Under the pieces are notes generated by a model, which had not been told where the DNA came from, did no database searches, and saw only the letters and a program-made list of their open reading frames with translations. Of a stretch of 51,721 nucleotides of DNA, positions 16,186 through 24,317 are shown piece by piece. Position numbers and translations under genes: made by a program. The stretch is from positions 1-51,721 of the forward strand of contig JAFUWD010000039.1 of NCBI GenBank assembly GCA_017483645.1, given 5' to 3'. Each line of letters begins with the position of its first letter. The first letter of the stretch is position 1. This DNA comes from Muribaculaceae bacterium (GTDB lineage: Bacteria > Bacteroidota > Bacteroidia > Bacteroidales > Muribaculaceae).

Positions 16186-16223
16186 CAAGGCACGACAACG
16201 CGACGTAAAAAACTCAAACAAGT

Positions 16224-16255
16224 TTTGGTTTTTTGCTCGCTTAACCGTAACTTTG
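16224..16255 (+). promoter_or_regulatory. tRNA-Arg promoter
   Basis: TTTG (16224-16227), 20 bp, then TAACTTTG (16248-16255) is a textbook promoter 17 bp before the tRNA. An A-tract and T-tract around the -33 box (16206-16234) form an imperfect hairpin that may also end transcription from the fadL-like pair. Confidence 0.75.
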
Positions 16256-16272
16256 CACCCGCATTACAGGCT

Positions 16273-16344
16273 GCCCCTGTAGTTCAATGGATAGAACGGA
16301 GGTTTCCTAAACCTGAGATTTGGGTTCGATTCCCAGCGGGGGTA
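16273..16344 (+). tRNA. tRNA-Arg (anticodon CCT)
   Basis: It folds as a cloverleaf. Acceptor 16273-16279 pairs with 16337-16343, the D-arm is GTTC/GAAC, the anticodon loop TTCCTAA has CCT at 16306-16308, and the T-loop is TTCGATT. The terminal pair of the anticodon stem is G-G, and the variable loop has 4 nt. CCA is not encoded. The last 13 bases double as the left attachment site of the integrated element. Confidence 0.93.
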
Positions 16345-16347
16345 CAA
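16332..16347 (+). repeat. Left attachment site (attL)
   Basis: CCCAGCGGGGGTACAA covers the T-stem 3' strand, the acceptor 3' strand and three bases beyond the tRNA. It is identical to 21360-21375. Integration here restores a complete tRNA gene. Confidence 0.88.
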
Positions 16348-16359
16348 ATATAATACAAC

Positions 16360-16405
16360 AAAAGCACTAATAATCAATGATTTGCGGTGCTTTTGCTTTT
16401 CTTTT
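16360..16405 (+). terminator. Terminator downstream of the tRNA, supplied by the element
   Basis: AAAAGCAC (16360-16367) pairs with GTGCTTTT (16387-16394), followed by GCTTTTCTTTT. It probably ends the tRNA transcript, replacing the chromosomal terminator now displaced to 21385. Confidence 0.65.
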
Positions 16406-16423
16406 ACTGGCATATTACTGGCA
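16404..16423 (+). promoter_or_regulatory. Paired arm-type repeats, left end
   Basis: Two direct copies of TTACTGGCA, at 16404-16412 and 16415-16423, start 11 bp apart, about one helical turn. The same TACTGGCA pair occurs at the other end (21221-21240). These are probably integrase arm-binding sites. Confidence 0.65.
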
Positions 16424-16622
16424 AAACTATACTTTTAAGGTCATTTTTTGAATCCCTTGAGGTGCTTGCTCGGAGTTCGTCAGCTGCTGCAACATCATCG
16501 GGCAAGCTCCCCTTTCCCGCGCGCGTAATGACTTCGGCAAAATCAGGTTTGCCATGTTTATCAACAGCACCCCTAAACAACAAAGTTTGCCGCCCCGGGG
16601 GCTTCCAAAGGCATCTTGCCTT
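16404..16622 (-). pseudogene. Probable gene remnant
   Basis: A 72-codon open stretch has no ATG and ends at a TAA inside the left arm repeat. Its translation looks protein-like (GAVDKHGKPDFAEVI, then LPDDVAAADELRAS and ending LKSIVLPVICQ). The pattern is loosely reminiscent of the N-terminal part of BT4734-like/VirE-N domain proteins of Bacteroidales mobile elements; that is a weak impression. It is GC-richer than the rest of the element. The overlapping 97-codon frame (16427-16720) looks less protein-like. Confidence 0.3.
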
Positions 16623-16672
16623 TTATACACAATTTCATGAATAATATCATTAAGAACTTTATTAACAATATC

Positions 16673-16756
16673 ATTTAAGGTGTACACCCTTTGTACATGG
16701 ATTGTACACCCTTTGTACATGGATTGTACACCATGGTGTACATGTACACCTTAAAT
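16673..16756. repeat. Iteron-like TGTACA array
   Basis: TGTACA begins at 16681, 16692, 16703, 16714 and 16725, exactly 11 bp apart, then at 16737 and 16743. The 11-mers TGTACACCCTT and TGTACATGGAT alternate, giving two full 22-bp units and part of a third. An 18-bp perfect palindrome (16725-16742) lies inside, and a 14-bp perfect inverted repeat (16673-16686 and 16743-16756) bounds the whole. AT-rich DNA with a repeated AATATCATT (16643 and 16667) flanks it. The layout is that of plasmid iterons or a cooperative operator. Confidence 0.7.
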
Positions 16757-17505
16757 TAAGGCGGCTTTTTGCCAAGTCTATCCAATACCATGTTTCTTAC
16801 CTCGCTCACTTTCTTCTTGTAGGCTTCCGCGCCGCATTTTCTATTTTTTTCCACCGCCAAAATCAATTGCTTGAGCTCCATTTTAGTGCTGATATAGTAG
16901 CCCCTTTGGTGATAGGAGTACACCGCCATGCCAAAGTCTTCGGCAAGTCTTCTTCTAATTGTGTCCCGCTTCCTTCTTGTGAAGTATCCACTGAGGGCAC
17001 CACCGCACTCCTTCTTTAGTTCTTTTTCATCACAAAAAGCCTTGTCGCGGCCTACCATTCGGGCAAACAAAAATAAATCATTTGTCTTGCAGTGGGTTTT
17101 TCGCCCCAAGATGCTCTTAGCTGCCAAGTAGGCCAGTAATGCTACCTTGTCCGGCTCGGAGATGTTTCTCGACCCGCGGATTTCCCAAAACAATCTTCTT
17201 GAAATGCCAGTCCTTGCGCCTTTGTACTTCAAATACACTTCTCCGGAACGCTGGTAATACTCGTATGCATCTGATTTACACTCAAAGCCCAAAAAATCCT
17301 CGGCAGTTCTCACCAATTGTCGCACTGGCATTGCATCGCCGTATTTATCCCGTACTTTTTTCATGTACTCATAGGAAGCCCAGCTCAGCATCTTATCGAA
17401 AGTTTTCCGCGGCCGATTGATGAAGCCTTCTAAAATAGACACTGGAAAGTTATAGTAGGCAGTTTCATTTTTTGGAAACCACTGATAAGCCTTGTTAGTT
17501 ACCAT
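16756..17505 (-). CDS. Protein of unknown function; possible DNA-binding or replication protein
   Basis: 249 residues, basic at the C-terminus, mostly helical by composition. I recognise no family. A stretch around 185-210 (RRKRDTIRRRLAEDFGMAVY then YHQRGYYIS) could be a helix followed by a wing, and the last 40 residues are Lys- and Arg-rich. It is the last gene of the HTH-led operon, and its stop codon touches the TGTACA array. A replication initiator or a regulator that binds that array is plausible, purely from position. The ATG at 17505 overlaps the stop of the upstream small frame in the string ATGGTAACTAA, which suggests translational coupling. Confidence 0.7.
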   Translation of the reverse strand: MVTNKAYQWFPKNETAYYNFPVSILEGFINRPRKTFDKMLSWASYEYMKKVRDKYGDAMPVRQLVRTAEDFLGFECKSDAYEYYQRSGEVYLKYKGARTGISRRLFWEIRGSRNISEPDKVALLAYLAAKSILGRKTHCKTNDLFLFARMVGRDKAFCDEKELKKECGGALSGYFTRRKRDTIRRRLAEDFGMAVYSYHQRGYYISTKMELKQLILAVEKNRKCGAEAYKKKVSEVRNMVLDRLGKKPP

Positions 17506-17782
17506 TGTTGCGCTCTCTTGTCATTTTTGAAAATGCACAAACCACACTCAAGCCCCACAATCTTGCATCTTTTGGGTCTCTCGGGCGATTTGTGCTGCTT
17601 ACCGAAGAATGTGCCGGGGGCAGTTTGCCATGCCTTTGTGGGGCATTTCTCGAAGCCGGGGCACTATCACGAAACGCGGCGGGGCAATTACCCGCCATTT
17701 GGAAAAATCCCAAAAAAGGAGTAAATTTGCCCCAGTGATTCGGCTTTATTATGCTAATGAAGTCAATCATTTTATAATCCAT
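17495..17782 (-). CDS. Possible small protein of the element operon
   Basis: A 95-codon frame. Its ATG overlaps the upstream stop (ATGGATTATAA) and its stop overlaps the next start, as in tightly coupled operons. The N-terminus, MDYKMIDFIS, resembles that of the gene before it (MDYIMIKEFIS). The rest is rich in Pro, Arg and Ser and lacks clear structure, and the DNA contains strong inverted repeats. It may therefore be a cis-acting region rather than a gene. The junctions favour a gene and the composition argues against it. Confidence 0.35.
   Translation of the reverse strand: MDYKMIDFISIIKPNHWGKFTPFLGFFQMAGNCPAAFRDSAPASRNAPQRHGKLPPAHSSVSSTNRPRDPKDARLWGLSVVCAFSKMTRERNNGN
17560..17735. other. 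Segment with several inverted repeats
   Basis: Within an AT-rich element this segment is locally GC-rich. GGCGGG (17678-17683) pairs with CCCGCC (17691-17696), and GGGGCAA (17681-17687) pairs with TTGCCCC (17727-17733), so two exclusive foldings share bases. A transfer origin, replication origin or structured mRNA is possible. It coincides with the doubtful small frame at 17495-17782. Confidence 0.35.
17765..17781. repeat. 17-bp element motif, copy 1
   Basis: AATCATTTTATAATCCA on the plus strand is identical to 21179-21195. It spans the stop codon of the gene at 17772-18335 and the start of the small frame at 17495-17782. Confidence 0.7.
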
Positions 17783-18335
17783 TTGAAGGGTCTTGCTGTG
17801 AAGCATCACCCTTCTTTTGTTCCACATGATATTGCCCACTCTCCACAAGTTGCTGAAGATACTTCATTACTTGTTCCATGTCATTGATATTGCCCATTCC
17901 AGCGAAATAGAAAATCACAATGTTAGCCCACTGGTCGGGGGTGAATAATACAACCAAGTCACCAGTGTCACCGGTCACCTTGCCCGATTCGCTGCTGATG
18001 CCCAGTGTACCATAACCAATGAAAAGGGGGTACAATGGCACTTGCCAAAGCTGGGTCCTAACTTCAAAAGGTTTGTGTTGCTTCAGGGGTGAATCCTCTA
18101 CCACCTTGAATCTTCCAAGGAGTTGCCCCACTACTGGGTGCAAAATGTTTCTGCCCTTGCGTTGAACACTGGTTATTTCGCTGCCTTTGCTTATAGAAAG
18201 ACGATTTGGAAGGGTGCTGCTTCCATGTTGCCAGTAATAGCTGCTGGCTGTGCCTTCCTTGTGCTGGTAGAAGGCCACTTGCATTGATTTGCTAATGAAT
18301 TCCTTAATCATGATATAATCCATTTTGTTAGTCAT
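17772..18335 (-). CDS. Protein of unknown function, element operon
   Basis: 187 residues from the ATG at 18335, or 183 from the ATG at 18323, which matches the MDYxMI start seen in the next frame. The middle is rich in beta-type residues (Val, Leu, Tyr, Gly) with a segment DLVVLFTPDQWANIVIFYFAG. The C-terminus is polar and Gln-rich. There is no signal peptide or recognised motif. The start overlaps the HTH gene stop by 8 bp, so it is the second gene of that operon. A role in element maintenance is guessed from position only. Confidence 0.65.
   Translation of the reverse strand: MTNKMDYIMIKEFISKSMQVAFYQHKEGTASSYYWQHGSSTLPNRLSISKGSEITSVQRKGRNILHPVVGQLLGRFKVVEDSPLKQHKPFEVRTQLWQVPLYPLFIGYGTLGISSESGKVTGDTGDLVVLFTPDQWANIVIFYFAGMGNINDMEQVMKYLQQLVESGQYHVEQKKGDASQQDPSNGL
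18306..18322. repeat. 17-bp element motif, copy 2 (two mismatches)
   Basis: AATCATGATATAATCCA differs at two positions from the other copies. It covers the first codons of the gene at 17772-18335 if that gene starts at 18323. Confidence 0.6.
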
Positions 18336-18639
18336 TTTTTGCCTTGATACAATGATTCTCCAAGAAGGCTTCGATGTCAGCCCTACGCACATAAATCTTC
18401 CTACCAAACTGGCTGAATGGTATCACTCTTTTGTCGCGATAGTCTTGCCATGTCTTTGACGAAACACCAAGCATCTTTCTTGCTTCGGTGCTTTCCAGCC
18501 ACATGGCATTGATTTCGGTTTCGGATTTGGTTTGCAGTGTGTTCTTCACTTCTTGCAGCAAGCCCTTGATGCCATTCCATTCCGATTCAGGAAGCACCAC
18601 CAAAGAAGGCACTGCTGTTATTGACGTAGGTTGTGCCAT
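18328..18639 (-). CDS. HTH (excisionase/MerR-type) DNA-binding protein
   Basis: 103 residues from the ATG at 18639; a TTG five codons upstream is less likely. The C-terminal half (about 50-100) is the small winged-helix form common in Bacteroidales mobile elements: a W-L-x-S-x-E-A start, VSSKTWQDYRDKRVIPFSQ, then GRKIYVRRADIEAFLE. Such proteins act as excisionases or regulators beside tyrosine recombinases. It leads the operon and has a strong promoter 60 bp upstream. The repeated 17-bp motif of the element is a candidate binding site. Confidence 0.85.
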   Translation of the reverse strand: MAQPTSITAVPSLVVLPESEWNGIKGLLQEVKNTLQTKSETEINAMWLESTEARKMLGVSSKTWQDYRDKRVIPFSQFGRKIYVRRADIEAFLENHCIKAKND

Positions 18640-18702
18640 TTGCACTGAAAACAATCAGGGAAAACAATTCACAACATTGTGGCTTGTGTCTGATTGGTGT
18701 CG

Positions 18703-18842: not shown

Positions 18843-19703
18843 TCAATAAGGTTCTTTGAGCCAAAAATCGGCTTCATATTTTATAGCCTGATTATATATG
18901 GATTTGATGTAAGATGTTTTTGCAATATTCATTTGCTTTGAGTCATACTTGTCCCAGTCCTTCTTCATGGCTTCATCAATCAATTCAAATAAGTCCATGC
19001 AGTCAAAAATACGCCGATAATCTTCATTTCGATGCCATTTGTAATGTCTTCTAATTCTCAAAATAAGCCAGTGTAATTTGCTGTTTTTTGGCGGTTTCCC
19101 GGTTAGTATTTTACGGGCCCGCGCGATTGTGCCTTCAATTTGTTTGGGTGTCACCTCCTCTTTGATTTCATTTTCTTCTATAAAATACTCTATATTAGTA
19201 GGCTCCTCGCAAAAGTCATCAAAATCATAAGCACTACAAGAATAATAATAGCCCACATCATCAGCAATGCCTTGTTCTTCAGCGAGAAATTGTAATTGTT
19301 CCCTAATCCATTCTTCGGCATCTTTGTTGTTTCTCCAGTCCTTCAGGTAGGCTTCGGCTTCCTCAATGGTCATTTGTCGCTGATTCATACCTAATGCCTT
19401 ATATCTTTCGATAAGGGCTTGCTTAAGGGCTTCCAGTGCTTTTTTACAGGTAATAGTTACTTTGCCAGCTTTCACCGGCTCATTATTGAGGACTGCAAGA
19501 AGCTGCTGTGCCAGCTCTATTCTTTCTCTTGCATTTCGCCTTGCTCCCCTACTGACTCCGGTTATAATATCAGCAAAGTCACGCTCGTCACAAGCTGCCG
19601 CCTTAAAGCTATCCCACAATTCGGCTTCAAACCTTTCAAAAGGGGTCTTTAATATAAGCCTTGTAAAGTCACCACGCTTGCTGTTTACTTGTTCCAAATC
19701 CAT
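18843..19703 (-). CDS. Acidic helical protein of unknown function
   Basis: 286 residues, very rich in Glu, Asp, Lys and Ala and probably all-helical. An acidic stretch lies near 165-185 (SCSAYDFDDFCEEPTNIEYF), followed by a more basic segment (KLHWLILRIRRHYKWHR). I see no signal peptide, membrane segment or known motif. It starts 48 bp after the integrase stop and ends before a strong terminator, so it belongs to the integrase transcript. It may assist recombination or be the cargo of the element; nothing in the sequence decides. Confidence 0.7.
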   Translation of the reverse strand: MDLEQVNSKRGDFTRLILKTPFERFEAELWDSFKAAACDERDFADIITGVSRGARRNARERIELAQQLLAVLNNEPVKAGKVTITCKKALEALKQALIERYKALGMNQRQMTIEEAEAYLKDWRNNKDAEEWIREQLQFLAEEQGIADDVGYYYSCSAYDFDDFCEEPTNIEYFIEENEIKEEVTPKQIEGTIARARKILTGKPPKNSKLHWLILRIRRHYKWHRNEDYRRIFDCMDLFELIDEAMKKDWDKYDSKQMNIAKTSYIKSIYNQAIKYEADFWLKEPY

Positions 19704-19751: not shown

Positions 19752-21173
19752 TCACTGGTTGAGGGAAGCCAGCACCGAAGTTATTTCTTCCTCACTCATG
19801 CCCTGAATCAATGCAAGAAGCTGGGTTTTCTTGTCGACCGGGCTACCAAATACGGATTCCAGTGCCTTGTCATTCTCGCTGGTGTCGAAGTTACCCATGT
19901 AGCCTTCAGTGGTTTGTAGCCTTGAATGTGCCAGCAAAGACTTCACCTTGTTGCTTTCGATACCCTTTTGTGCTGCCACACTTGCAAAAGAATGCCTGCT
20001 GATATGCATGGATACTTTTTTGCTGATGCCAGCCTTTGCAGCCAGTCTTTTCAGGCTCTTATTGATAAGGGCATTTTTGGAAGACACTTCTTCAAAAAGT
20101 TTTTGCTTCATGTCGCTGGGAAGGGTGTCCCTATCTGCCTGAAGTATGGCACTGGCATAAGTCTTTCGATTGTCCATGAAGGGAAAAATGTAGTCAGTGG
20201 GCTTGCTGGCTTCGGTTCGATACATGGCAAGAATGGCTGCTGCTTGTGGCACAAGCTTCAAGTCCCTTGTCTTGTGGTTCTTGCCCATTTGATAGTTAAG
20301 CCGGCCACCTTCCACATTCAGCCACCTTAACTGAAGCAAGTCACCCACCCTGATGCCGGCGCAATAATAACTGAAAAGGAAGCAATTCAGGCTGTGCCAG
20401 TCAAGACTGCCTTTTTCCGGCTCAAGTGCTTCCAGTGCCTGAATTTCGCTGATATTTAGCTTTTCTTTTTCGGTCTTGATGCCACTAAACCTGAAAACCA
20501 AAAAGGGGTCTTTGTCGGGTGTAATGTATCCCAGTTCAATGCTTTTTCTCACCAGCGTTTTGAAAACCTTGAGTACAACAACAATTGTATTTTGGTGAAG
20601 CATCTTGCCAGCTTCCTTCGGGCTTCTTGAATTATGAAGGGTGTGAAGGTAGGCATCAAACTTTGTAACAAATTCAGGTGTAATTTCGCTGAAAAGCACT
20701 TCTTTCTTGTGCTTCATCTTCTTGTCCATGAAGTCAGCCAGCTTGTTGAGGAAGCCATTATACTTCTTCCAGTTCCTGATGCCGCCAGCTTCAAGAATGG
20801 CTTGTGTCCTTTCGGCTGCAAAGCCAGTCATGCCACTGGCATCAATCTTCAGGAAAGTATGCGATTGTTCTTCACCCTTCACCAGCAAAGCAACACTTTC
20901 GGCCGTGGCTGCTGATGTTTCCTTCAGTTCCTTGTAACTCTTTCGGGCATCTTCAAGAATGTCGGCTAAAACTTCATTCCAAACCTTGCTGTTAGGCTCA
21001 CTTTCTCTAATCCAGTTATTACCCTTGCACTTTGCATTGAAGTCTTTTTTGCGGTTCAGGAAGATGTCAGTCTTGATTCTCTTTCGCCGGCCGGCGATTG
21101 TGACACACAACAAAATGTTATATTTCTTGTTGCGGTTCGGCTTTGTGTTAAGCTCAAATCGGTAGGTTGCCAT
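19752..21173 (-). CDS. Tyrosine-type site-specific integrase
   Basis: 473 residues, normal for Bacteroidales integrases. An N-terminal arm-binding domain (1 to about 110) precedes a SAM-like core-binding domain (about 115-225) and the catalytic domain (about 235-450). Catalytic residues are visible: Arg275 (AGIRVGD), a Lys near 298-301 (GKNHKT), His390 and Arg393 (HISRHSF), His416 (LAHSR) and the nucleophile Tyr425 (TTEGYMG). All are intact, so the enzyme is probably active. It should recombine the 16-bp core at tRNA-Arg. Its promoter lies in the right arm repeats, which suggests that it represses itself when bound. Confidence 0.95.
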   Translation of the reverse strand: MATYRFELNTKPNRNKKYNILLCVTIAGRRKRIKTDIFLNRKKDFNAKCKGNNWIRESEPNSKVWNEVLADILEDARKSYKELKETSAATAESVALLVKGEEQSHTFLKIDASGMTGFAAERTQAILEAGGIRNWKKYNGFLNKLADFMDKKMKHKKEVLFSEITPEFVTKFDAYLHTLHNSRSPKEAGKMLHQNTIVVVLKVFKTLVRKSIELGYITPDKDPFLVFRFSGIKTEKEKLNISEIQALEALEPEKGSLDWHSLNCFLFSYYCAGIRVGDLLQLRWLNVEGGRLNYQMGKNHKTRDLKLVPQAAAILAMYRTEASKPTDYIFPFMDNRKTYASAILQADRDTLPSDMKQKLFEEVSSKNALINKSLKRLAAKAGISKKVSMHISRHSFASVAAQKGIESNKVKSLLAHSRLQTTEGYMGNFDTSENDKALESVFGSPVDKKTQLLALIQGMSEEEITSVLASLNQ

Positions 21174-21359: not shown

Positions 21360-21375
21360 CCCAGCGGGGGTACAA
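21360..21375 (+). repeat. Right attachment site (attR)
   Basis: Identical 16 bp to 16332-16347. Together with the preceding bases it makes a perfect hairpin: GTACCCCC (21355-21362), AGC, GGGGGTAC (21366-21373). Confidence 0.88.
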
Positions 21376-21439: not shown

Positions 21440-22483
21440 TTAAAATACCGAGGCTGCAATAGTTTTTTCACTTAAGTCGATAAGAAACACAGCCGTGATT
21501 CCCGACCAAACTTTTTCTACTGCGTCATCCGGCTTATTTGCCACGCGGCCTAAGGCTTCCCTGGCTTTTAACCACTGGGCAAGACTACTTTTAATATCTT
21601 TTCGCAAGTTACAGGCACCATTATACTCCTCAACATATAAGCTGTCGCTTTGTCGGTTGTACATCTCATCATGGTCCTCATAATAAACACTGTCCAGAGC
21701 CTGCTTCATACTCTGCTGAAGAAGCGATTCGGCTTGACGAAGGTTACTGCTTGATTGTCCTCTTTTGCCATCAAACAATAGGGCATTCATTTTCTTTTGG
21801 TCCTCAATTCTTGAGCGAACAACATCTTGATGGCTCATAAGGCTTGACGGACCCGCTAGCGAGCCTCCCCAAAAAAGCAATCTTGCAATTGTTGACAAAT
21901 AAGTGGTTAAATCGCTTTCCAAAACTTTCCATTTTGCCATCTCTTCGCGAAGTGCCGCACGAAGGGGCTCGTTCGAAACACGACGACACATTCTTTCGTA
22001 CATCACCGCTTCGCGATAACGGTCCACGGCAATATCCACATCCAACCCGACGATAGCAGACATTGTCGGCCCACCAGCCATCGGCGCATAAACAGTTTCT
22101 ATCTCGTTGAGAACCGAATCAATCTTCTGCGCTTCATCCAATCCCTTTGGTGAATGATGGTTATCAAAATAAGCCACAAGTAAGGGATTGATACGCCTGA
22201 CCTCGCTCATGACCAAGTCGATGTTTTGGGGGACTGTATCACCCATGTGCAACCTCCATAAATATTGAGCCACCTCTACGAGTTCGCCATGCTCACACAC
22301 GATATTATCGTCGGTCCAAAAGGCTAATGAATCTTTAAGCTCATCATAATTAGAATCGCTTGTTTCGCACACAGTAAGTGAGTCGGCCTGAGTTTTGGGC
22401 TTCTTGTTGTCAGTTGGCCTTGAATTGCACGCCGGCAGCACCATGACCGCTATCGTCAGCAGCAAAATACTAATCCTATTCAT
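21440..22483 (-). CDS. Lipoprotein of unknown function
   Basis: 347 residues. A lipoprotein signal peptide ends in a lipobox, VLPAC, near residues 15-19, so the mature protein is lipid-anchored. The rest is largely helical with many charged residues. A C-terminal segment (NLRKDIKSSLAQWLKAREAL) is loosely like LprI/DUF1311 lysozyme-inhibitor repeats; that is a tentative impression. It stands alone with its own strong promoter and lies just outside the integrated element. Confidence 0.75.
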   Translation of the reverse strand: MNRISILLLTIAVMVLPACNSRPTDNKKPKTQADSLTVCETSDSNYDELKDSLAFWTDDNIVCEHGELVEVAQYLWRLHMGDTVPQNIDLVMSEVRRINPLLVAYFDNHHSPKGLDEAQKIDSVLNEIETVYAPMAGGPTMSAIVGLDVDIAVDRYREAVMYERMCRRVSNEPLRAALREEMAKWKVLESDLTTYLSTIARLLFWGGSLAGPSSLMSHQDVVRSRIEDQKKMNALLFDGKRGQSSSNLRQAESLLQQSMKQALDSVYYEDHDEMYNRQSDSLYVEEYNGACNLRKDIKSSLAQWLKAREALGRVANKPDDAVEKVWSGITAVFLIDLSEKTIAASVF

Positions 22484-22607: not shown

Positions 22608-22760
22608 AAATTAGGCGGCGGCTCGGAAAAACTCGAAGCGAACTTTGGTTTTTCGCTCGCCTTGCACTAATTTTGCCTACAAAATGGCGAAATTAGGCGG
22701 CACCTCGAAAAAACATTCAAGCAAGCTTGATGTTTTTCGCTCGGTTTGCACTAATTTTGC
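22608..22760 (+). promoter_or_regulatory. Tandemly duplicated promoter of the rRNA methyltransferase gene
   Basis: Two units about 83 bp apart share AATTAGGCGGC, an A-tract, a T-tract (TTTTTCGCTCG) and TTGCACTAATTTTGC. Each contains a -7 box TAATTTTG (22668-22675 and 22752-22759). In each, the A- and T-tracts form an imperfect hairpin over the -33 region. The second copy starts transcription about 15 nt before the ATG. Confidence 0.7.
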
Positions 22761-22778: not shown

Positions 22779-24317
22779 ATGAATGACAAGTTTGAAATGG
22801 TGGCCAAGACCTTTCAAGGACTGGAGGGTGTGCTGGCCGATGAGTTGAGAGCGCTGGGCGCCGATGAAGTGACTGAAGGACGCCGCATGGTGGCCTTTGT
22901 GGGCGACAAGGAAATGATGTACCGCGCCAATTTCTGTTGCCGCACAGCGTTGCGGATTCTCAAACCGTTTCTGAAATTTCACGCCAACAGTGCCGATGAC
23001 CTCTATGAGCATGTGAAAGAGTTCGACTGGGAACAAGTGCTCACGGTCAACAAAACATTTTCTATCGACGCCACCACCTTCGGCGAAGAGTTCAGGCACT
23101 CACGCTTTGTCACCTACCGCGTGAAGGATGCCATCGTCGATTTCTTCAACGAGCGCTATGGCAAGCGGCCGTCGATTCGCCTCACCAACCCTGACCTGCG
23201 CTTCGACGTACATATCGCCGGCACCGAAGTCACCATCTCACTCGACTCGAGCGGTGAACCGCTCTACCGTCGAGGATGGCGCGTGGCTCAGACCGATGCC
23301 CCCATCAACGAGGTGCTGGCTGCAGGCATCATCAAGCTGAGCGGGTGGGACGGCCAAAGTAACTTTGTAGACCCGATGTGCGGCAGCGGCACGTTCTTGA
23401 TTGAGGCGGCAATGATTGCGGCCAACATCAATCCAGGTGTATTCCGCAAGGAATACGCTTTCCAGCTGTGGAATGACTATGACGAGGAGATGTTCTCACG
23501 TATCTACAACGACGATAGCGGCGAGCGTGAGTTTACCCACAAAATCTACGGCAGCGACATTGAAGGCAAGGCCGTGGCCATCGCACGCGAGAACATCAAA
23601 AGCGCCGGACTGGGACGATTCATCGAGCTGGAGCGCCGTGCCATCGAAGACATCACCGAGGCGCCTGAAAAAGGAGTCCTCATCACCAACCCGCCCTACG
23701 GCGAACGTCTGGAGGTGGAGAATATCGAGCAACTTTACCGCACCATCGGCGAGAAGCTAAAAAAAGTGTTCACCGGCTATCACGCATGGCTCATTTGCTA
23801 CGACAAGGAGCATTACGACAAGATTGGGCTCAAGGCTTCGGTGCACTACCCATTGCAAAACGGAGGTTTGGACTGCGAGTTGCGGGAATATGTGATTTTC
23901 GACGGCACCTATGACGACTTGCGCAGCCGTGGAGAGACGATAAAGAACGAAGGCTTCCGGGCCAGCGAGGACAAGCGACGCTTGCCACGTCGCGAATTCC
24001 GTCCCACCGACGATACCGAAGGCACCGACCACCCACGTCGTGAGTTCGACCGACCGCCACGCCGCCCCTTTGACCGTGGTGCCGACCGCTTTGCCGAGCG
24101 GCCACGCCGCCAGCGCGACGAGGAAAATGGAGATCATCCTCGAATCAGGCGCAACGGTGGTGCCGACACCAGGCACAGTGAGGAATACGCCCGACACATG
24201 CTGCGCGACAGGCAGCCACGCTTGGGCGCCGACAAAGAGGTGCCCATTATCAAGGGCCGCCGCAAGAGCTGGAAGCGCAAAGATTTGGACGACAACTCCT
24301 CCACCCCGCAGCAGTGA
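22779..24317 (+). CDS. THUMP-domain RNA methyltransferase (RlmL N-terminal-like)
   Basis: 512 residues. The N-terminal THUMP domain (about 1-160) binds RNA. The methyltransferase domain (about 160-390) has the SAM-binding motif PMCGSGTFLIEA and the catalytic NPPYGER. It corresponds to the N-terminal half of E. coli RlmL and probably makes m2G in 23S rRNA. The last 115 residues are a low-complexity Arg-, Asp- and Pro-rich tail with repeated RREF and PRR units, probably disordered and RNA-binding. The stop overlaps the GTG start of the next gene. Confidence 0.88.
   Translation: MNDKFEMVAKTFQGLEGVLADELRALGADEVTEGRRMVAFVGDKEMMYRANFCCRTALRILKPFLKFHANSADDLYEHVKEFDWEQVLTVNKTFSIDATTFGEEFRHSRFVTYRVKDAIVDFFNERYGKRPSIRLTNPDLRFDVHIAGTEVTISLDSSGEPLYRRGWRVAQTDAPINEVLAAGIIKLSGWDGQSNFVDPMCGSGTFLIEAAMIAANINPGVFRKEYAFQLWNDYDEEMFSRIYNDDSGEREFTHKIYGSDIEGKAVAIARENIKSAGLGRFIELERRAIEDITEAPEKGVLITNPPYGERLEVENIEQLYRTIGEKLKKVFTGYHAWLICYDKEHYDKIGLKASVHYPLQNGGLDCELREYVIFDGTYDDLRSRGETIKNEGFRASEDKRRLPRREFRPTDDTEGTDHPRREFDRPPRRPFDRGADRFAERPRRQRDEENGDHPRIRRNGGADTRHSEEYARHMLRDRQPRLGADKEVPIIKGRRKSWKRKDLDDNSSTPQQ

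Follow-up and report, generated by a model that had tools for sequence, protein, structure and literature searches.

Iteron plasmid origins combine direct repeats with AT-rich DNA and an adjacent initiator gene, a layout resembled by the locus described here with its probable initiator, but the plasmid repeats lie about two helical turns apart, whereas those of this locus and its relatives have a one-turn pitch (11–12 bp). In phage-inducible chromosomal islands (PICIs), the origin lies immediately 3′ of rep and contains iterons and an AT-rich region, and in the E. coli PICI origins two sets of iterons flank the AT-rich region (main text of PMC6092414). The text of PMC10803314 describes PICMIs as minimal satellites of Vibrionaceae with a core of integrase and AlpA, and includes PF12728 in the model used to search for them. 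RepA of PLE, a RepA_N protein, is presented in the text of PMC7145576 as a satellite initiator that has no predicted helicase or primase activity and binds semi-palindromic iterons. An iteron-binding initiator of this kind can serve when a phage supplies the remaining replication functions.

A preliminary description of the DNA studied here (the window, the whole stretch of 51,721 nucleotides that was analysed) had pointed to an origin-like or operator-like array of TGTACA hexamers at 16673–16756. The array sits within a 5,028-bp element that has its own integrase and is inserted in a tRNA-Arg gene. The features of the element and its target are as follows.

16273–16345, + strand: tRNA-Arg (CCT), the integration target (ARAGORN; Rfam RF00005)
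16332–16347, + strand: att core on the tRNA side, CCCAGCGGGGGTACAA, a 16-bp direct repeat with 21360–21375
16622–16680, no strand: AT-rich stretch (82% AT), probable unwinding region
16673–16686, + strand: far arm of the inverted repeat, comprising the outermost hexamer and a CTTAAAT box on the bottom strand (similar boxes in relatives)
16681–16748, no strand: seven TGTACA hexamers, probable iterons (similar arrays beside homologues)
16725–16742, no strand: 18-bp palindrome TGTACACCATGGTGTACA (read from the sequence)
16743–16756, − strand: gene-side arm of the inverted repeat (repeat search)
16756–17505, − strand: 249-aa protein, probable replication initiator (Rep; no match in Pfam or PDB, best PHROGs match E=0.046)
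17772–18407, − strand: gene of unassigned function, a 211-aa ORF whose true start is probably internal (ORF list)
18328–18654, − strand: HTH_17 protein, probable excisionase or AlpA-like regulator (PF12728, E=2.1e-12)
18843–19703, − strand: 286-aa protein with no assigned function (ORF list, Pfam, PHROGs)
19752–21173, − strand: tyrosine recombinase, the integrase (PF00589, E=2.8e-16; PF13102)
21360–21375, + strand: distal copy of the att core (repeats 5,028 bp apart)

Both att cores are 16-bp copies of the 3′ end of tRNA-Arg(CCT). The HTH_17 protein also matched the PHROG 'excisionase and transcriptional regulator' (E=2.9e-7), and relatives of the gene at 17772–18407 were recognised by eye in loci L008 and L062. 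Searches with Pfam and PHROGs recognised no terminase, primase or helicase gene in the window element. In the relative genome G012, whose aligned flanks are approximately 89–90% identical, the element is missing and the corresponding tRNA is followed by different DNA. This is an empty site for the element, though not a clean single difference, because a lipoprotein-like neighbouring gene (21440–22483) is likewise unmatched there. Exact repeats of the tRNA end bound elements in six of eight relatives tried (L008, L052, L062, L063, L009 and L060), and none were found in L059 and L061; the seven att pairs, window included, enclose 4.5–8.2 kb. An 84-bp unit is present in 1.8 copies at 22608–22760 of the window, directly upstream of a gene at 22779, and has short matches near the empty site in L087.

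Five of the hexamers start at 16681, 16692, 16703, 16714 and 16725, in exact 11-bp steps, and two more start at 16737 and 16743. The inverted arms, ATTTAAGGTGTACA and TGTACACCTTAAAT, are 14 bp long and 100% complementary, and a 22-bp direct repeat fills 16681–16724. The AT-rich stretch starts where the array stops on the side away from the gene, reaches the 99.9th percentile when compared with 60-bp windows up to 3 kb away, and contains a 21-nt repeat (16631–16651 and 16655–16675, 81% alike). Base 16756 is shared, being the last of the inverted-repeat arm and the lowest coordinate of the stop codon of the 249-aa gene (16756–16758). The coordinates thus bear out the anatomy given in the preliminary description: five hexamers in 11-bp phase with two beside them, a perfect inverted repeat, an 18-bp palindrome, AT-rich DNA with its own repeat, and contact between array and stop codon.

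The hexamer occurs 17 times in the whole window where 8.9 are expected; this total was reached in one of 100 shuffles and is therefore only mildly unusual. Its clustering stands out, with seven copies in 80 bp compared with at most two in 300 first-order random sequences. The best palindromic hexamer of any kind reached five once in 40 first-order random sequences, and with the array masked the best such cluster in the window was two. The window's own genome (101 contigs totalling 2.1 Mb, completeness 79%) contained no second run of three TGTACA at 11-bp pitch. DnaA boxes are frequent, though not universal, at iteron-type origins, and an exact DnaA-box-like sequence, TTATACACA, lies inside the AT-rich stretch at 16623–16631. 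An exact box was present in one of 19 flanks, against 0.24 expected; a DnaA box is not conserved in the relatives, and we set it aside as chance.

In gene order the window element and its relatives resemble the SaPIs and Gram-negative PICIs, with int, a probable excisionase, a putative rep, an array immediately 3′ of it and sometimes terS, and the probable iterons likewise lie beside AT-rich DNA (main text of PMC6092414). Site-specific att sites and an integrase, by which PICIs are recognised, were found here as the 16-bp att pair, the tyrosine recombinase and the absence of the element from G012. Unlike PICIs, elements of the window type are only about 5 kb long (4.5–8.2 kb over the seven att pairs), their initiator has no Pfam match, and their hosts are Bacteroidia; the string 'Bacteroid' occurs 0 times in the main text of PMC6092414. 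In the window and the TGTACA relatives, moreover, the AT-rich DNA has an array on a single side only, unlike the E. coli PICI origins described there. With PICMIs the window element shares its very small size, an integrase and, in its HTH_17 protein, PF12728, but it has no recognised primase and occupies tRNA-Arg, whereas PICMIs are described with a DUF3987/DUF5906 primase and a fis site (text of PMC10803314). The PLE origin differs in that its repeats are longer and the non-coding region around it spans 2.7 kb (text of PMC7145576). RepA_N, the family of its initiator, was absent from the 16 Pfam families matched at E≤0.5 by any of 23 members of the window family. The marine 'Charybdis' elements, as described in the accessible text of PMC12324425, are of similar size; no link to the 249-aa family was found and they were set aside.

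The gene adjoining the array had been called uncharacterised, and this holds for its whole family: candidate identities from Pfam and PDB profiles were rejected as chance-level matches, and PHROGs matches were weak, none being significant. No known initiator family was matched in the Pfam and PDB searches, plasmid Rep families in Pfam included, and a simple HUH pattern was absent from the window protein and from 21 of 23 members. The window protein was matched in four of 101 genomes. Profile searches found members in 5 of 397 genomes of the family, 12 of 393 of the order, 6 of 101 of the genus and 6 of 335 of the class, in sets that overlap and each count the window's own genome. A scan of named genomes yielded four loci, in Bacteroidales, Muribaculaceae or Candidatus Azobacteroides MAGs, and the homologues are spread over several families of the class Bacteroidia. 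Two IMG/VR records encode members (L080 as query). Viral contigs gave no relatives with alignment A1, the window protein, L082 or the L008 terminase as query, nor any match to the two-arm DNA pattern, and tblastn against phages and plasmids found no match. Two stand-alone homologues, L006 (1393–2130) and L013 (1833–2543), come from Bacteroidales MAGs, L006 being on a Candidatus Azobacteroides contig; neither has a detected integrase or array, and both are possibly domesticated. Among the matches listed from a largely open-access literature, there was no description of the 249-aa family or its islands.

Conservation of the array was assessed by searching the 400 bp 3′ of each gene for repeats spaced one or two helical turns apart, with a threshold of p<0.01. 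This was passed by 17 of 26 3′ flanks, compared with 1 of 25 on the 5′ side and 18 of 230 controls (Fisher p=5e-11); the controls flank other genes of these loci and include coding DNA, which is itself able to repeat at 21 and 24. When 17 loci were pooled, the largest excesses were at lags 11, 12, 13 and 22 (z=16.6, 20.1, 10.9 and 13.1 respectively). The main excess in the 3′ flanks spanned lags 11–13 and 22–25, with none at 9–10 and weaker ones elsewhere, for example at 14, 31 and 33; the 5′ flanks were also in excess at lag 11 (z=6.8).

Nine of the 26 flanks did not reach the threshold: L008 (p=0.014), L063 (p=0.09), L053 (p=0.037), L054 (p=0.30), L056, L057, L061, L006 and L013. The pitch is irregular in L008 and L063, yet they hold five and four TGTACA respectively. 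No integrase was detected within 6 kb of the others; little flank was available for L057 and L013, and the gene of L006 was scored for integrase in L010. Of 27 loci searched with 11 integrases and 11 small HTH proteins as hand-picked queries, 16 had an integrase no more than 6 kb away and 20 had the HTH gene, one copy being split over two of these loci. Among loci with an integrase, 13 of the 15 in the flank test passed, L008 and L063 being the exceptions. Among the 11 loci in the test for which no integrase was detected, four still passed (L058, L059, L099 and L084); L084 is half of the split copy, the other half of which, L085, has an integrase, and in L099 an integrase-like gene was seen by eye at a greater distance.

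The preliminary description had proposed conservation of the array beside homologues of the gene as a check on its reading. The array was kept, but TGTACA itself is clustered in only six of 26 3′ flanks (seven copies in the window, five each in L062, L008 and L052, four in L063 and three in L009); the proteins of the five other TGTACA loci are 20–44% identical to the window protein. Inspection by eye revealed other repeat words, ACAGCA-like in L055, L057, L058, L059, L060 and L082, CCACATAAATAA in L079, and CACGACCTATAA in L080 and L084. The TGTACA type needs two changes in a tree of 23 members, and it may have had a single origin. What is kept more widely than TGTACA is an array at about one turn, a box of the CTTAAAT/CTATAATA type, and AT-rich DNA beyond. 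Boxes of a set comprising CTTAAAT, CTATAATA and similar words, chosen after inspecting the flanks, occur in 20 of the 26, compared with 0.0–0.4 expected per flank. In each of 23 loci, the 60-bp segment with the highest AT content up to 350 bp from the stop codon was ranked against the surrounding 6 kb, and in 15 it reached the 99th percentile or higher. Such a rank takes a maximum and so favours high values; in L013 this maximum is high and there is no array. Two separated copies of the array are present in L080, L081 and L084.

As a lone genome-wide marker the motif TTTAAGGTGTACA was rejected, since it occurs at 18 places in 16 of 397 genomes and the reversed control pattern at 26. Among the 18 loci, clusters were found in G000, G038, G057 and G293, all beside the gene. 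L024 (G445) has three TGTACA in approximately 250 bp with no regular pitch.

In two relatives the homologue is linked to replication genes. The L054 homologue is fused to a BT4734-like_N domain, which matches a DNA primase/helicase PHROG, and the L053 homologue is followed by a CHC2/Toprim primase gene. Neither of these loci has a significant array or a detected integrase. Genes downstream were scanned in 15 loci (L008, L009, L052, L053, L055, L060, L078–L084, L098 and L099), and a terminase small subunit was clear in four (L008, L055, L083 and L099). The order integrase, HTH protein, Rep, array, terminase small subunit is direct in L008 and L083 and occurs in L055 after other genes. A small-subunit match in L098 was below cut-off; L099 has a portal of the SPP1 type and, just short of the Pfam cut-offs, a large-subunit-like protein. 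DUF5681 genes lie downstream in L082 (above cut-off) and in L052 and L079 (below).

Several further observations were made in these loci. In L055 (10400–11951) two terminase-small-subunit genes are adjacent, of the Sf6/phrog_309 and Terminase_2 types, preceded by a small unassigned gene. L099 and L102 belong to a 16.7-kb IMG/VR record with the initiator, a portal, Terminase_2 and a large-subunit-like gene; inspection by eye added a 1333-aa tape-measure-like protein and an integrase-like gene at the opposite end, and recognised no capsid gene. A RusA resolvase gene follows the array in L078 (5703–6128, Pfam) and in L079 (9566–10006, by eye).

The gene and array are best read as a replication initiator with an iteron origin, arranged as in PICIs; we consider it likely that the array is the initiator-binding part of the origin and that the adjacent 249-aa protein is the initiator. 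The preliminary description had left origin and operator side by side, and the comparison among homologues favours the origin. As an operator, the array would play no part in replication; the 249-aa protein would bind it cooperatively to regulate transcription of its own operon or of genes downstream. Palindromic hexamers in phase suit a cooperative regulator, a gene starts shortly beyond the AT-rich stretch in L008, L052 and L082, and a weak promoter-like match overlaps the window array, there being six such matches in 1.5 kb against 2.2 expected. However, the array is kept in the window although the sole ORFs separating it from the tRNA are of 85 and 97 aa, and in L062 although the listed ORFs beyond it are on the other strand, except for one of 101 aa about 800 bp on. 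It also lies 3′ of the gene, 24 of 25 5′ flanks being without significant repeats, and one homologue is fused to a primase-like domain. Because the primase-linked L053 and L054 lack a significant array, we lowered our estimate for the origin very slightly and raised that for the operator by as little; an operator is still unlikely.

Repeats in 11-bp phase are also typical of some plasmid centromeres, so the array could be a partition site comparable to parC or tubC, occupied by an adaptor protein of the ParR or TubR kind. Neither the Pfam search of the window element nor inspection by eye of relatives' gene maps revealed a partner ATPase or GTPase, integrated 5-kb elements need little partition, and the AT-rich DNA at the array edge would be left unexplained; we regard partition as very improbable. 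A marginally lower probability attaches to a recombination or packaging site, that is, accessory sites for integrase and excisionase or a pac site for terminase. The window array begins 326 bp from the end of an att core and the L008 array adjoins a terminase gene, but in L009 and L062 the arrays are kilobases from both att copies, and the array is kept where no terminase gene was recognised, in the window and (by eye) in L062 and L063. Across the window, L009 and L062 it holds to the 3′ end of the Rep gene despite differing distances to the att sites. Least probable is a hairpin origin or structured RNA, in which the inverted repeat would act as a single-strand hairpin, for example a rolling-circle nicking site or an attenuator. 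As single-stranded DNA, the window array gave a much stronger fold than its shuffled versions (z=−5.1), but the two relatives folded gave weaker values (z=−2.2 in L062 and −1.1 in L052), so that folding in the window may follow from its palindromic sites. The window protein lacks the simple HUH pattern, and no RNA family was found in 16200–17600 except the tRNA.

On the origin reading, the HTH_17 protein and the integrase would excise the 5-kb element, and the initiator would bind the TGTACA sites, which lie one turn apart on a single helix face. Once occupied, the array with the CTTAAAT box at its end would open the adjoining AT-rich DNA (16622–16680), and host or helper-phage replication proteins would load there. 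The element may replicate autonomously. Its amplified DNA would then be packaged by a phage, on which the element would depend. Since relatives of the element carry small-terminase genes, the window element is most likely a minimal phage-satellite-like island, amplified and packaged in this way. For the window element itself, which has no recognised terminase gene, the word satellite rests on those relatives, and we favour it with moderate confidence.

The locus offers a testable initiator–origin pair of less than 1 kb, for a protein family outside Pfam and PDB, and suggests that Bacteroidales and other Bacteroidia carry phage-satellite-like islands. We give roughly even chances to a broader proposal, that this unnamed initiator family defines a lineage of satellite islands of about 5 kb across Bacteroidia, in which the origin architecture (one-turn iterons, a CTTAAAT/CTATAATA junction box and an AT-rich melting region) has stayed constant while the recognition word has repeatedly switched (TGTACA, ACAGCA, CCACATAA, CACGACC). 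If that is true, the iteron code would be readable against protein sequence. The origin reading, if right, would by itself provide a small replicon and a naturally occurring range of iteron specificities with which to study DNA recognition and opening by initiators.
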